The notes beneath the pieces were generated by a model. It was not told where the DNA came from. It saw only the letters and a program-made list of their open reading frames with translations, and searched no databases. Shown one piece after another: positions 20,572 to 61,884 of a stretch of DNA of 64,000 nt. The stretch comes from Thamnidium elegans (taxonomy: Eukaryota > Mucoromycota > Mucoromycetes > Mucorales > Mucoraceae). The stretch's first letter is position 1. Every line of letters starts with the position of its first letter. The stretch is from NCBI GenBank assembly GCA_025201345.1, contig JAIXMG010000011.1:744001-808000 (forward strand), in the 5' to 3' direction. Position numbers and translations under genes: made by a program.

Positions 20572-21249
20572 AGCTTAGTTTATACAGAGCAAAAAAAGAA
20601 ACAAAACAAAAAAGTCAGGCTTTGAGCTTTGAACGTTTTTTTTATTTTTTATTGTAGCGCCGAACCCCGAAAATAAAGTTGCTTGTATATCTTTTTTGGA
20701 TAAAATGGAAAAGAAATTAGTTTTCAGGCATGTTGAAGGGATCAAATGTTTTTTTTACCTGCAATATCTTTAAATCTTACGTTCTATGCGGTGTTTTGCC
20801 TTTTGACAATTAAATACTTCTGGCCGTCCATTCCCAGTCCAGATCTGTGAGGCAATATGTATCATATTTTTTTGCAGCGAGGACATCATGATTCCAATAT
20901 ATATTACAGTTGTTACAGATCAATATACCAAAGAATGTTCTGTCCTCAACTTTATGATGTCAAAGGTTCTTCTCAAAAAAATTATGAAATACCTATTGTA
21001 GAGGGTTATTTAGATGTATATTTGGATGTATAAACTTCTTCTTTGGCACATGAATGATAAAAAATAAACTTGATACACACAGGTGACATGGACAAGTGTT
21101 TAAGGCACAGTAAGCAGGGTAAACAAAAAAATGTACATTAAAGAAGTCTATGTCGCGTATTTTGTTTTATTTATTTTTTTGCATTGGCATGATTTACTTT
21201 TTTATAAATCGAGTTCCGTTTATGCTTATTTTTATTTTTGTAATGGAAT
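20572..21249. other. intergenic, upstream of AP-3 beta and left flank of transposon
   Basis: Contains the AP-3 beta promoter region (minus strand) near 20580-20700. The rest is AT-rich, with no gene seen. The right part would originally have adjoined the second Fanzor gene before the transposon at 21250-23893 inserted. Confidence 0.45.
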
Positions 21250-23893
21250 TAACGTGCATCTACTTTATAATAAACTCTACTAACTCCGATTTTTCGTATT
21301 TTTTTATTTTCTATAATACTCGACGGCAAAACACTTTTAACATAAATTAATTGCAGTTTAACATTATAAATAAGATTACAAAGAGATATGCCGAAGTGTT
21401 TTTTTTGTCTTTGCGGTGTTTTTCGTGAAAAATATCGATTTGAAGTTTGACTATATTTTATATCTTAAAACTATCAATTACACTACTTATAAATATTTAA
21501 ATAATGGGAAGAATATCTAACAAAAAAAAGGCTTGGGCGAAGAACTTACGTAACGTACGTAATTTTCCAGAGCAGGTTACTGAGCAACAAAGTGATATTT
21601 CTTCAGTAAACGATGAACCTGTTCAAATCATTGATGAGGCAGCCCTCCAATCAATTAATTTTAAACTGAAGGAAGACGGAGTCAGTAAGAGAGAGGCATT
21701 TTCTAGGGGACTTGAATACAGTGCTAGATATCAGCGAAAGTTGAAGCAGAAAAACAGGGAAATGGCGAAAGGAAGCGCCAAAATATCCAGTTATTTTAGT
21801 AGCGTAACCGCAAGTTCTGCATCTGAGGAGGCGCCTGTCGAAACTGAAATGCAAAAACTTCAAGCAGCCTATGACTACTTAACCTCTGAGCTGGAACCAA
21901 AAATTAGCTTAGAAAGCGCCCAACAAAAGGCAGGCACATATGAGCGTACAAAATACTTGGCCGTTCATTTGTACTTGGAGCTCCGAATTGATGGTATCAA
22001 GTGAATACAGGCTTCAGAACTTGCAGCCAAAAGATTCTGGTATGGTAAGGCTACGGTTTACCGTAGTATTGTAATTCGGAAATATGTCGCCGAATATATC
22101 ATTACAGGGGAAATTACTAAGGGTTTGCAAGGAAAACACTCGAAGAGAATATCAATTTTAGATGACAACGATATCAAGAGAAAAGTTATTGAGTGGTTCA
22201 GATCTGTGCCCAAATTTCAAAGAAATATTCCTGCGATCCAAAATGAGCTTCGTCACGTTATTATACCGAATGCAATCGAAAATAACGCTCTTAATGTTGA
22301 AAGATACTCCAACGCGGTTACTTCTATTGAATGTATAAGAAAGAAGCTTATTGAATGGGGTTTTTATTTTAAGCGAGTTGGTAAATTAATTAATTATGAA
22401 AAAAAACAAATAACTCGTTACTAATAAAAAATCTTTTATTTTACAGGAAGAGTAATTTTTTTCGACGGACACGAAAGAGAAGATGTAGTCGCATACAGAA
22501 ACGAATGGTCTAAAAGAATAATGTTATACCGCGAGTATTCTGAAACGTACAGTTATGATGATGTTAGTATTGTAATCCCTCCAATTTTACCTACCAATGT
22601 CAGACAACATGTCTTTGTAACTCACGACGAAAGCACATTCTATGCTAATGACCATCAACAGTATGCTTGGCTGGAAGAAACTGAGAATTTTTGCTTGCCA
22701 AAATCTCAAGGTAGGTCAATTATGATCTCTGAATTCCACTGTCCCTGTCACGGAACAATGAGGGCTATGATAAATGGCAAACCCATGACCTCGAGAGTGG
22801 TGTTTTATCCTGGAGCCCCTCACCAAGGATATTGGACGAGTGAGCACATGGTCACTCAATTGAAGGACGTGTTGGTCTTGTTTTCTGTTTTGCACCAAGA
22901 TATACTGCCGTATTCCTTTTCGATCAGAGTAGTAATCATAAGGCCTTCGCCAAAGATGCTTTGGTTGCTAGTAGAATGAATATGGGAGGAGGTGAAGTAA
23001 AAGAAGATGATGTCAAGGTTAGAGATGGTCGTTATACCGTAGTAGTAGATAGCCAATCTGTAGAGAAACGTCAAAGTTTTTACGTTGAAAGAAATTTCAA
23101 CTACCCCGAGCTACAAAAGCTTAGATTTAGCAAAATTTCCAGGGCTGATAAAGTTGTGAAATTTGATGCAATTATGAAAAACGTTCATCCCGTAAGTTTA
23201 TAATTATCCATTCTTAGATTTCAAATTATATATATATAGAAATTTTCGTTTAACTCGTTTGATTTATTTAAAAAATAGAATAACGAGATAAAAACATATT
23301 TCATAGGTATTAAAGAAATATTAACACAAAGAAATTTGTTCGGTGGTCAAAACAGATATTGCAACAATGTAGAAGCTGCCAACCATGAATGTTGTGCGGT
23401 TCATTTGCTTGGCAGCCAGCCTGATTTCATAGAGCAAAAATCAATCTTGGCTGAAGCTATTGAAGAAGCAGGTCACATTTTCGAACTTTACCCTCGGCAT
23501 CATTGTGAATGTAGCCCCATTGAACGTTTCTGGGGAGCCAGCAAAAAAATAGCGAGACGGAATTGTAACTACAATTTCCGCTCTCTCGATAACAACATCA
23601 ATAGTTTTCTTGATAGCGTGAACCAACCTGGAGAGATCCCTTTGCAAATCCGTCGTTACTTCAACAAAAGCTTCCGGTACATTGAAGCTTACAGTAACGA
23701 AAAAGATGTTGCTGAGGCATTTTCTCTCGTAAAAGAGTTCTCAAAGCTTCAAAAATCACACAGAAAGCTCCGCGAAAATCAATAATTCACATAAAAAAAT
23801 AAAAATAAAAAAAGGCAGTTTTAAATGCCAATATCCATATTAGGAGTCGGAATTGTAATTCCAAAAAGTTTATTATAAAGTAGATGCACGTTA
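21250..23893 (+). mobile_element. DDE transposon with perfect 27-bp terminal inverted repeats
   Basis: The left end (21250-21276, starting TAACGTGCATCTACTTTATA) and the right end (23867-23893) are exact reverse complements over 27 bp. The terminal TA may be a target-site duplication or part of the repeat; TTA also fits. The only gene inside is the transposase relic at 21504-23785, in the same orientation as the element. Total length is 2644 bp. Its right end lies 43 bp before the start codon of the Fanzor gene that follows, so the Fanzor is outside this element and may have lost its promoter to the insertion. Confidence 0.88.
21504..23785 (+). pseudogene. DDE transposase, recently broken (TGA plus frameshift)
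   Basis: The start MGRISNKKKAWAKNLRNVR leads into an N-terminal region with a helix-turn-helix-like segment (ASELAAKRFWYGKATVYRSI). An in-frame TGA lies at 22002-22004. Introns are likely at 22381-22446 and 23192-23278. The catalytic part reads VFVTHDESTFYANDHQQYAW (first Asp), GRSIMISEFHCPCHGTM, FYPGAPHQGYWTSEHM, then, after a +1 change near 22900, VFLFDQSSNHKAFAKDAL (second Asp) and PRHHCECSPIERFWGASKK (Glu). The last part is CNYNFRSLDNNINSFLDSV and a basic C-terminus. These motifs define a transposase family I know from many fungal genomes, but I cannot name its superfamily with confidence. Only two lesions in about 690 codons suggest recent inactivation or sequence error. Confidence 0.82.
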
Positions 23894-23936
23894 TGCTTTT
23901 CTCTTTCTTTTTTTTTTTTTTTACCTAAATATCTTA

Positions 23937-26381
23937 ATGCGTCCTATTATCTATCCTGAAACAGAAGAACTAATTCGAAATAAAAAGCAACAGAAGTTTC
24001 AGGTACGTGTTGAAGAGGAAAGGCAATCTAGCAATAGAAGAAGAGGTAACATTGAACTATAACAGTTTCTGTGAATTTTATTGATCATATTGATAACTTT
24101 ATCTAACTGCTATATTGACTCAGGTAAAAGAAAAAAAGACACACCAGAGGAGAAAAAAGCCAAGGCGGATGCAAGAAAAAGAAGAAGAATAGAACAGGAT
24201 TCTTCATCTTCTGGACCTGTTTGCAAGTCCTGTGGCCAACCTGGTCATACTACTTCTGCTTCTCGTTTATGTCCCAACCATGAATATACTATCAAAGAAA
24301 GATTAGGAATGGCTTTCCCTACTTCTTATCAATTGTATACCGTTTCTATAACGCTTAAATCATTCATCAGGCAAGATGAAGGGAATCCGAACAAATTGTT
24401 TCGTCTGCTTGTGGTACTGTAGCTACTGCCTATAACAACTTCTACGTGGAAAATTATGAAACGTATATTGGAAACTATTTTATATACAGACTAAAGCAGG
24501 AGTATACTGTAAGTATTAACAAAAATACTAGTTTACATAACTATTATACTCATGAACTTTATTTATAAGAATATTAAAATGCCACTTGTAAAAAAGGTTG
24601 TATATGATTATGTCTTAGATGAAGCCTTAAAGAACGACACAAGGTCAGATATGCCAGAAGATTTTATTACACAAGATGGTCTTAATAGTGCACCAAATCT
24701 ACAGGCATTTTTAAACGATATCATTCAGCCAGTTAGAAACAGAGCACCTCGGCTCCCACTTTCAAGAGAAGGTGACCAAAAACCCATTCATTGTTCTATC
24801 GATAATGACTTATATTATCGAATTCTATGAGCAGGTCAATATACAACTTCAGGAAAATATGCAGCCAGAACAGTCAGAAGAGCTACTAGAACAAACAATA
24901 GAGCAACCGCCGGCTCAAACGGTTGAGTTAGTCCGTCCTCAGACATAAATGCGACAACCCCAGAGGCCTCGCTTGTTTTCTCTTTTTCCAAATCCTAGTC
25001 TTAAATGGCGGTTCATAAAGATTGATGGTCAAAATTTGTCAACTCTTTTCCCTGATACACGGCTTCAAAGAGAAGAAAACGAAACAAATTTCGCACTCGC
25101 TACACGTTGCTTTTTCAATTCTTTCGATTTTACCAAGCTGAAAATCAGAAAGTAAGTTTTTTTTAATCCCCCCTCTCCCAATTAAGATCATTATTAATAT
25201 TTATTACAATAGCTTGACAAAATTACAAGAATTACCAAGACAGAAAAGACGGATGTTCTTGAACAGTATATACACTGATGGATATACCTGTAGAATTTCT
25301 TTTGCAAGGAGTGTCCCAGAAACTCTTGAAGAAGATAAAGTCAATCTTGAAATCGCAGATCTCAACGCAGACGAAATTGAAAACTTTTTCCGTTCTTGTT
25401 TTCTAGACCCTGGCCGTAAGAATGCATATGTGGCATATTATGGAAATGAACAGGTCAGGTCTCTGACAGTAAATGAATACTATTGCTCTTCTGGATCTGT
25501 AAATCGAGCAAGAAAACAAGATACCTTCAAAATCGAACAAGGCATAAAGGATCTAGAGACTCAAATCCCGACGACTAAAACTTCTTCTGTTGATTCTTAC
25601 ATCAACCACCTAACATATGTACTGACTCATTTGAGGCGTTTTTTTTTAATTTTTATGACTTCAGAACAGCTTCAATTAAATGGAACAATTATTATGGAAG
25701 GCAATGTGCCCTCGAAGAAGCTTGCAATATTCTGATTAATGGTGGGAAAAAATATAACCCCAATCGAAGAAAGAAAATAAAATCAAATAGACGGAAACGA
25801 AAAAAAAAAATGGTCAACCGACGAACTCCCGATTCTCGCAATCTACCAATATAAATAAAGTAATAGTATATTTTCCAAGTATATGATCATCTTACTAACA
25901 TCCATTTATATTTTAGACGGACTAACCACAAAAGTCATTTCGTTGAAGGGGACAGAACAAAGATGCCTTTGGTGATTTTCGGTGATGGTTTAAAAGGGAG
26001 TAGCCATGTGAAGTACAAAGGACGACGAGTTGGCGTTTCTGATGTCATCTATAAGAATTTAAAAAGAAGACAAAACCTCGGGGAGGTGTTATTGCTTGAT
26101 ATAAATGAGTTCCGGACCCCTTCTGTAAGTTATTACAATACAATTAAGCGCTTATTAAGTCAATTAATTATCCTTCTATAAAATAGGTCTGTCCAAATTG
26201 CAAAGAAATGAAGCTTAGAACTCATAAAGTTGACGACAAATATTTCTTTAATATATTGATCTGCAACGATTGTAATATATTTTGGAATAGAGATATCCTC
26301 GCTGCAAAAAATATGATGTTCATCGCATGCCAGATCTGGGCTGGTATGGACCGACCAACAATTTTTACACGTCAAAATTGA
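23937..26381 (+). pseudogene. Fanzor (eukaryotic TnpB-like, RuvC/zinc-ribbon nuclease), young copy
   Basis: Likely exons: 23937-24045, 24124-24334, 24382-24508, 24570 onward, up to 25151, 25213 onward, and 26187-26381. The N-terminus is basic with a zinc-knuckle variant C-x2-C-x4-H-x7-C (CKSCGQPGHTT), then AYNNFYVENYETYIGNYF. The nuclease half has SLFPNPSLKWRFIKIDGQN, DGYTCRISFARSV, FLDPGRKNAYVAYYG (RuvC-I Asp, 25406-25408), PLVIFGDGLK, IYKNLKRRQNLGEVLLLDIN, then EFRTPS (Glu 26107-26109). Last come zinc ribbon VCPNC..ICNDC and WNRDILAAKNM (RuvC-III Asp, 26292-26294). The Glu sits beside the zinc ribbon, the rearranged site reported for Fanzor. Lesions: a one-base shift near 24825, in-frame TAA 24946-24948, a homopolymer-T shift near 25640, and possibly an A-run shift near 25800. 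TnpB relatives cut DNA with an RNA guide; activity here is doubtful because of the breaks. Confidence 0.85.
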
Positions 26382-26913
26382 CAACGCGCCACATAGAACG
26401 TGGTTGTTTCGCGTCTTCGGACAAAAAACTTAAAGATTGCTACAGGTAAGAGAGTGTATAAATACATGACTAATAGAAACTTGATATATACTAACACTCA
26501 ATATGCCCTATTTTTGAATCTGTATTCTGTTTTCCTATTGCTGTCTCATATTCCCTTCTGCATCTCATATTCCCTTCTGTGTCCCAATTTTGTAACCTTG
26601 TCCCAATCTAATTTGGAAATGACCAAAAATTTATTTACTTTGTCCAAAAAAAGGTAAGAGTATATAACCCGCAAAAAATGACCGTTGTATAAAACAAATT
26701 CGATTTTAAAATAGATGCACTGTAGAACCGTTGTATAAATAAAATCCATGGTACTCTAGCATGGATGTATTTGAATTAAGTAATGGTAATTAAATAATAA
26801 TAAAGTTAAAGTTATGGAATGTGTGTGTGTGTGAGAGAGAGGGGTATATGTTTTTTCTTGAAATTGTTTGTATAGCTTTCATGTTGTTTTATAACAGCAA
26901 CAACAACAAAAAC
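26382..26913. other. intergenic downstream of the young Fanzor
   Basis: AT-rich. This is where a Fanzor-associated guide RNA and the right end of its element would be expected. A GC-richer stretch at 26383-26425 (ACGCGCC..GTGG..CGCG) follows the stop codon directly and then drops to AT-rich sequence. A GT dinucleotide run lies near 26821-26835. No inverted-repeat partner was found upstream. Confidence 0.4.
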
Positions 26914-60549: not shown

Positions 60550-61884
60550 TACAGTCACGTGTAATAACTGTTTGAACGACTTCATTTTTTTAAAAAAATA
60601 AAATACTTCTTATCTTTTTTTCGATATATATCTACTTTTTGATAAATAACATAAAATGGTACTTTTTGATATTACTACTAAAACTACTGAGAAACGAAAG
60701 GAACTTTCAGATTTCGAAAAAGGCCTACATCAGCATACCGAATACTCATTGGGCAAAATCAGTAAGCTTTTGGGTATCCCTAAGTCTATAGCCGGTGACA
60801 TCGTAACCCGTTGGAAAAACGAAGGAACAGTTACAAACAAAAATCGACCTGGAAGACCTGAAAAACTTTCAGATTCGGGTAAACGTCTTCTGTCTAGAAA
60901 TATTCGTCGAGAGACCTTCCAGCCTTACAATCACTTTATTGGAAATTTGAAAGATGCTGACATTTGCATTAACAGGAAGACTTTCTCTTCGTATTTGAAG
61001 AAATGGGTTTCGGTTCGTTTTATCCTGCTAGGAAGTCAGGAATGACGCCTACACACATGGAAAAAAGACTGGAATGGTGTAAGGACAAAGCGGATTGGAC
61101 CCAAGATCAATGCGAATCAGTGATCTGGCCCGACGAGTCGAAGTTTACAGTAGTAAGTAACGATCGTGGCACTAGATGCATTCGTAAGAAGGGTGAAAGG
61201 TACGAACAGAGGCACATTGTCCCTACGTACAAGTTTGGTAAAGGATCCGTTATGGTTTGGAGCTGTTTTTGGTCTGGGGGTTTAGGGCCATTAGTGGTAA
61301 TTGATGGCAGTGTAGATCAGGATGCCTACATCAATACCCTTGCGAAGAACTTTCATCCTTGGTACCAAAATTTGTCAGAGGAAGGAAATAAGCAATTTAT
61401 TTTCCAAGAGGATGACGCTTCCTGCCATACTGGCAAATATGCGACCTGGTGGAAGGCAGCCCATCAAATTAAGGGCTTTGACTTTTGGCCTGCGCAAAGT
61501 CCGGATTTAAACCCTATTGAGCATCTTTGGGCTGCTCTGGAAAAGCGTATTGAGCACGTTAGACATCGTATATTTAATACTGAGCAGCTCTAGGTATGTC
61601 TTCAAAATGAGTGGCGAAACTTAGGCAGCGACTTATTGTCGAATTTAGTGGCAAGTGTGCCTAAAAGATGCCAGTCTGTAAATAGACAATAACGGTGGCT
61701 GCTCAAAATACTAAAAAATAAAATAAAATTATTTTTTGTAAAAATAATACTCTTTTCTTTAAGTTTTTAAAATTTGGTAGTGTTTGAAAGACTTTTTTAT
61801 TAACTAGCTTTACTGTTTGAATTGGGATGTATATAACACTTCAAAAAATTAAATTTGTTCAAACATTTATTACACGTGACTGTA
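60550..61884 (+). mobile_element. Tc1/mariner transposon with 28-bp inverted repeats
   Basis: The left end (60550-60577, TACAGTCACGTGTAATAACT...) and the right end (61857-61884) match in 27 of 28 positions as reverse complements. Both terminal TA pairs are present as the target duplication, so the element is about 1.33 kb including them, the size of a full Tc1-like transposon. It holds one transposase gene in the same orientation. The high identity of the ends and near-complete gene suggest a young insertion. Confidence 0.9.
60656..61692 (+). pseudogene. Tc1-like transposase with one frameshift and one stop
   Basis: N-terminal helix-turn-helix: SDFEKGLHQHTEYSLGKISK, LLGIPKSIAGDIVTRWKNEG, and GRPEKLSDSGKRLLSRNIRR (GRP linker). 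The catalytic core, after a frame change near 61002 where one A appears lost in a short A run, reads VIWPDESKFTVVSN (first Asp), SVMVWSCFWSGGLGPLVVID, FQEDDASCHTGKYATW (second Asp) and WPAQSPDLNPIEHLWAALEK (Glu), a DDE triad with about 35 residues in the last interval. A TAG at 61591-61593 cuts off the last 33 codons; beyond it the same frame continues NEWRNLGSDLLSNLVASVPK, RCQSV, which is the normal Tc1 C-terminus. Two lesions make this copy inactive unless they are sequence errors. Confidence 0.9.

Follow-up and report, generated by a model that had tools for sequence, protein, structure and literature searches.

A decayed Fanzor1 gene as the probable cargo of a recently expanded Tc1/mariner-like transposon with two right ends in Thamnidium elegans

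We analyzed a 64,000-nucleotide stretch of the Thamnidium elegans genome (C3:744001-808000 in the 34.1-Mb assembly that was searched; hereafter the window, whose own positions are used below) around a gene at 23937-26381 for Fanzor, a eukaryotic relative of the CRISPR nucleases. Taken together, the evidence makes it highly probable that this gene is an inactivated, spliced Fanzor1 copy, carried as cargo by a Tc1/mariner-like transposon that expanded in a burst in T. elegans and combines a single left end with two right ends. The carrier is 5.47 kb long (21252-26722) and consists of the left end, a DDE transposase gene, an inner right end, the Fanzor gene, and a diverged outer right end, with a TA target duplication on either side. 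The original prediction, which had recognized a Fanzor nuclease gene with a broken frame, overlooked that the gene has 12 sister copies and is carried by a transposon with a transposase and an inner right end.

Sequence match, profile match, the fold of a relative, and a relocated glutamate preceding a zinc ribbon support the identification of the window gene as Fanzor1. With the C2 sister copy as query, similarity to SpuFz1 was found at E 2.6e-6, and a profile built from 17 relatives gave E 1.1e-18. The fold of a relative fits Fanzor1 and not Fanzor2 or TnpB. The D-E-D motifs and the zinc ribbon that had been predicted were all in place: DPG, which we take to be the RuvC-I Asp, at 25406-25414 in exon 4; the catalytic Glu of NEFRTPS at 26107, at the end of exon 5; the CPNC..CNDC ribbon, which comes next but on a separate exon, exon 6; and WNRD, presumably the RuvC-III Asp, at 26283-26294 in exon 6. 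The position of the Glu just ahead of the ribbon agrees with the relocation claimed as Fanzor-like, and the predicted N-terminal zinc knuckle (CKSCGQPGHTTSASRLC) was found in exon 2. The Fanzor1 motif of Bao and Jurka, rendered here as the search pattern D-x(125,275)-[TS][TS]xx-C4 ribbon-x(5,50)-RD, matched the spliced C2 sister copy and 6 of the 32 listed homologues, a set with many partial gene models; the window residues fit it save for TP in place of TS. TnpB instead of Fanzor was rejected, as fold and spacing argue against it. Elsewhere in the genome there were at least 21 TNB-domain matches, 19 of them above cut-off and some in long open frames, which putatively are further Fanzor families.

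The exon model places six exons on the plus strand (23937-24045, 24124-24508, 24570-25151, 25213-25859, 25917-26124, and 26187-26381, the last containing the stop), separated by five GT..AG introns of 57-78 nt (24046-24123, 24509-24569, 25152-25212, 25860-25916, and 26125-26186), with support covering introns 1-3.

The carrier opens with the left end (ACGTGCATC..., 21252-21276), the left arm of an inverted repeat, next to the left TA duplication (21250-21251), which is preceded by T (TTA). The interrupted transposase gene follows on the plus strand (21504-23785), with modelled exons at 21504-22380, 22447-23191, and 23279-23785, the start of the third being one of two acceptors tried. The inner right end (23867-23891) is a perfect inverse of the left end, forming with it an inverted repeat of 100% identity over 27 nt; it closes a 2.64-kb transposase unit (21252-23891), after which TA stands at 23892-23893. 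The outer right end (ATGACCGTT...AAAATAGATGCACTG, 26678-26722) is a diverged relative of the inner one, with which it has a subterminal ATGACCGTT stretch in common, as seen in C21, and is followed by the right TA duplication (26723-26724). TA adjoined all of the ends listed (11/11 left, 17/17 right). The transposase translation carries HDEST, FDQSSNH, and ECSPIERFW, presumably the D-D-E residues, and its relatives are fungal proteins, several with PF13358 (P0034 showed 48% identity over 54% of the query). The full-span gene was interrupted in 4/4 copies under the intron models tried, and a Pfam search of the element's single open frames yielded nothing useful.

The inner right end seems to be a true working end, because in C12 it is followed by TA and then by unrelated sequence; the same boundary recurs in C56, C31, and C32. 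We infer that either right end can serve the transposase. Pairing of the left end with the outer right end would move transposase and Fanzor together as 5.47 kb, and pairing with the inner right end would move the 2.64-kb unit alone, leaving Fanzor behind with a TA-GT-TA scar. Fanzor would thus be cargo that the carrier may take or leave.

The Fanzor gene is present in 13 copies in the T. elegans genome at 96-99% identity, window copy counted. We analyzed 19 related stretches, 13 bearing Fanzor and six others. Among the 13, the transposase gene runs over its full span in four (C3, C2, C19, and C21); five have a unit with about 1.6 kb missing (C10, C11, C33, C26, and C1:2044 kb); the unit is flipped and shortened in C56, reduced to remnants in C63, and absent from C31 and C32. 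The other six comprise three copies without the Fanzor body, one 3' Fanzor fragment, a truncated transposase unit without Fanzor (C12:997020), and an older relative (C12:421600, L038). The TA rule was backed by the empty paralogues of C32: three unoccupied paralogous sites aligned without gaps through the junction, a single dinucleotide standing in place of the copy's two TAs, making this the one site at which the target duplication was observed. Empty sites were sought in the same genome with the joined flanks of 13 of the 19 stretches, and only C32 gave paralogues across the junction among the best candidates scored; the remaining matches lay in the flanks of the copies themselves and, for one piece, next to the C56:985 kb copy. 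End motifs were found at 0 of 9 further loci within 1.5-kb flanks, namely eight other TNB-domain loci (L001-L008) and L038.

The family burst recently to at least 13 Fanzor-bearing copies and is now decaying. Its 171 private substitutions divide into 102 missense, 57 synonymous, and 12 stop, where fractions of 0.669, 0.296, and 0.035 are expected without selection; they look neutral by these counts, with stops appearing in excess of expectation. All but one of the family's 13 stop mutations were private. Against the older subfamily L038, pS was 0.70, with synonymous sites near saturation, and pN 0.25 over 213 codons; together with the unconstrained private substitutions, this shows protein constraint that preceded the burst and did not persist beyond it. 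The 13 copies gave a star-like tree without a fork that passed both support limits. Two pairs of copies had stitched flanks: C10 and C11 have a common left flank (1.2 kb at 99.9%) but not right flank, and C19 and C21 a common right flank (1.3 kb at 99.8%) but not left flank, which may reflect exchange between copies, segmental duplication, or misassembly.

T preceded the left TA at 14 of 15 junctions, or 13 of 14 once the flank shared by C10 and C11 was merged (P about 2.6e-6, given a background of 31.2% T before TA in the window). The exception was ATA, in the left flank of the flipped copy, and in 3/3 C32 paralogues the T of TTA is host-derived. Right flanks were free, with A after the right TA at 2 of 16 junctions (C19 and C21 merged). 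Tc1/mariner transposases pick TA with flanking preferences, and we consider it fairly probable that the left-flank TTA is a mere target preference of the transposase with no tie to Fanzor. One ATA among 14 independent junctions speaks for such a preference. A preference of a symmetric two-end complex should also give A after the right TA, which the right flanks rarely have, but an end-specific preference would yield the observed picture.

The same asymmetry is the geometry that would be expected, as yet unproven, of a left-side adjacent motif combined with a guide read from the right flank. Guide RNA would have a role in retention: by analogy with other Fanzor and TnpB proteins, an RNA reaching from the gene's 3' end into the right flank would direct an intact Fanzor to cut the emptied site beside the left-flank motif (TTA here), and repair of the cut site from a sister copy would restore the element. 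Tested Fanzor1 proteins have the adjacent motifs CATA, TTAAN, and ATN (PMC10432273, PMC11423790). We hold it as a tentative idea, with odds against it, that the TTA flank is the trace of an adjacent-motif requirement of Fanzor, insertions having been kept where Fanzor could recut the empty site, and that escape of the transposase unit via the inner right end leaves Fanzor in place. If true, the family would record, from sequence alone, transposon retention by Fanzor in a eukaryote and a conflict between carrier and cargo. The guide RNA scaffold presumably lies in the 3' region that extends to the outer right end (26382-26722, plus strand). A 19-bp tandem repeat lies within it at 26544-26581, and its copy number differs among the sister copies.

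Junctions in the two copies devoid of the transposase unit bear on how Fanzor and its carrier part. The left flank of C31 and C32 reads TTA-GT-TATG, where composite copies have TTA, then the unit ending in GT, then TATG. Our preferred reading is that TA-GT-TA is the footprint of an excision of the transposase unit that left Fanzor behind. Mariner excision scars measure 2-4 bp (PMC7913693), and the two-base scar fits this range. It seems improbable instead that C31 and C32 descend from an ancestor that had only Fanzor and its own left end, GTTATG, and that the transposase unit came in later, TA-GT-TA being no scar. The two copies do lie at unrelated sites with an identical left boundary, divergence is greatest in C31, C32, and C63, and C32 and C63 stand at the midpoint root of the tree. 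Against such an ancestor, the outer right end shows no inverse of GTTATG, the inner unit ends in precisely GT, and none of the 11 listed left ends has GT between TTA and the left end. Furthermore, C31 falls among the composite copies, although tree support is weak, and a nub of the left end survives in C63.

Several observations weigh against the composite-transposon interpretation as a whole. Scars were present in only 2 of the 13 copies, and a small ancestral unit of Fanzor alone retains some probability. At the junction of 3/3 empty C32 paralogues, the dinucleotide is CA, not TA. The transposase's own Pfam match was below cut-off (E 0.051), and its probable class rests on the PF13358-bearing relatives, the TA duplication, and the ends. 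Finally, four copies showed no clear RNA structure in their 3' 420 nt, where the best window reached a z of about -2 at places that differed between copies.

By its sequence, the window copy is a true pseudogene of a spliced Fanzor1 gene. Exon 2 lacks 314 bp at about 24391-24395, a loss confined to this copy (1/13), the segment being present in 12/12 sisters. In exon 3, a 2-nt loss near 24772 leads to TGA at 24828, and point stops stand at TAA 24946 in exon 3 and TAA 25852 in exon 4. The original prediction had placed frame breaks near 24825, at 24946, and at a T homopolymer. The first two were recovered, the former as TGA 24828; the third is the T run (25639-25647), whose length varies across the 13-copy family, as does that of the A run at 25800-25810; both runs lie in exon 4, and their lengths count among the breaks of this copy. 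The exon 2 loss had been overlooked. Under one exon model, all 13 assembled copies are interrupted. Several of the family's breaks fall in homopolymers, which are the sole kind of lesion in at least one sister, and an intact copy somewhere in the genome is therefore possible; single homopolymer lengths could be assembly errors.

The prediction had left a choice between a recent pseudogene and an intact gene hidden by unusual splicing, and each half was partly right: the five introns are real, so that much of the broken frame is splicing, yet the copy is dead. Assembly error, its further suggestion, is unlikely to have caused the 314-bp loss as well as two point stops. That the window gene is intact and expressed, concealed by splicing and assembly errors, finds some encouragement in the introns and the homopolymer breaks and is nonetheless rejected as very improbable, given the exon 2 and 2-nt losses, the two point stops, and the lack of constraint in the family's private changes.

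Mariner elements that bear Fanzor1 have been known since 2013, when Bao and Jurka described cases that share their transposase halves but have exchanged 3' halves (PMC3627910). Among the elements of that account, PGv-1, PUl-1, and HMa-1 are similar in plan, with a Mariner-like transposase, Fanzor1 in the 3' part, and TA duplications. Their hosts are viruses, an oomycete, and Hydra, whereas T. elegans is a mucoralean mould, and the inner right end and excision scars of the T. elegans family were not met in what the account gives of these three. SPu-1, with SpuFz1, of Spizellomyces punctatus resembles the window element in the RuvC D-E-D order, the Glu just ahead of the zinc ribbon, the fold of the relative, the inverted repeats with TA duplications (PMC3627910), and the presence of partial and ghost copies in the genome (PMC10432273). 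It differs in being one open frame (PMC3627910), where the T. elegans gene has five introns, is longer, bears an extra N-terminal basic and zinc-knuckle region, and travels with a transposase. MCi-2, MCi-4, and MCi-5 of Mucor circinelloides (PMC3627910) are likewise Mucorales Fanzor1 families in several copies with mixed 5' parts, but have MuDR-like ends, a partial Crypton, or a Harbinger transposase, with duplications of 9, 11-12, or 6 bp in place of TA and mariner. PpFz1 of Parasitella parasitica (PMC11423790) differs in that it has an FRI domain, which binds cyclophilin, and the motif 5'-ATN. Bacterial TnpB proteins with a relocated Glu (PMC10711439) share DPG and a Glu six residues ahead of the ribbon, but the T. 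elegans spacings of 209 and 20 depart from their pattern of 120-160 and 12-18.

Our literature search found no paper linking Fanzor with Thamnidium. As far as the literature searched shows, this family is new, and so are its inner right end, its scar-like junctions, and the asymmetry of its flanks. To our knowledge, the benefit of Fanzor to its eukaryotic transposon is an open question. Retention could be tested concretely in this one mould, not known to us as a pathogen, where a recent burst has produced 13 copies and where ends, an empty site, scar-like junctions, and a candidate adjacent motif are at hand. The second right end suggests a route by which a mariner element could gain and lose Fanzor, which could explain published elements that share a transposase half but differ in the Fanzor half.

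Further features were noted outside the element. A relic on the minus strand at 20779-21019, about 230 bp from the element's left end, is what is left of a final Fanzor exon from a different, older subfamily, with WNHD for WNRD. Beyond the outer right end, window 26725-26745 and C1:2156764-2161363 have a similar extension of about 15 bp that resembles the subterminal repeat and is absent from the other right ends listed. A second Tc1/mariner-type transposase lies at 60656-61593 in two overlapping frames, its DDE_3 match above and its HTH match below cut-off.
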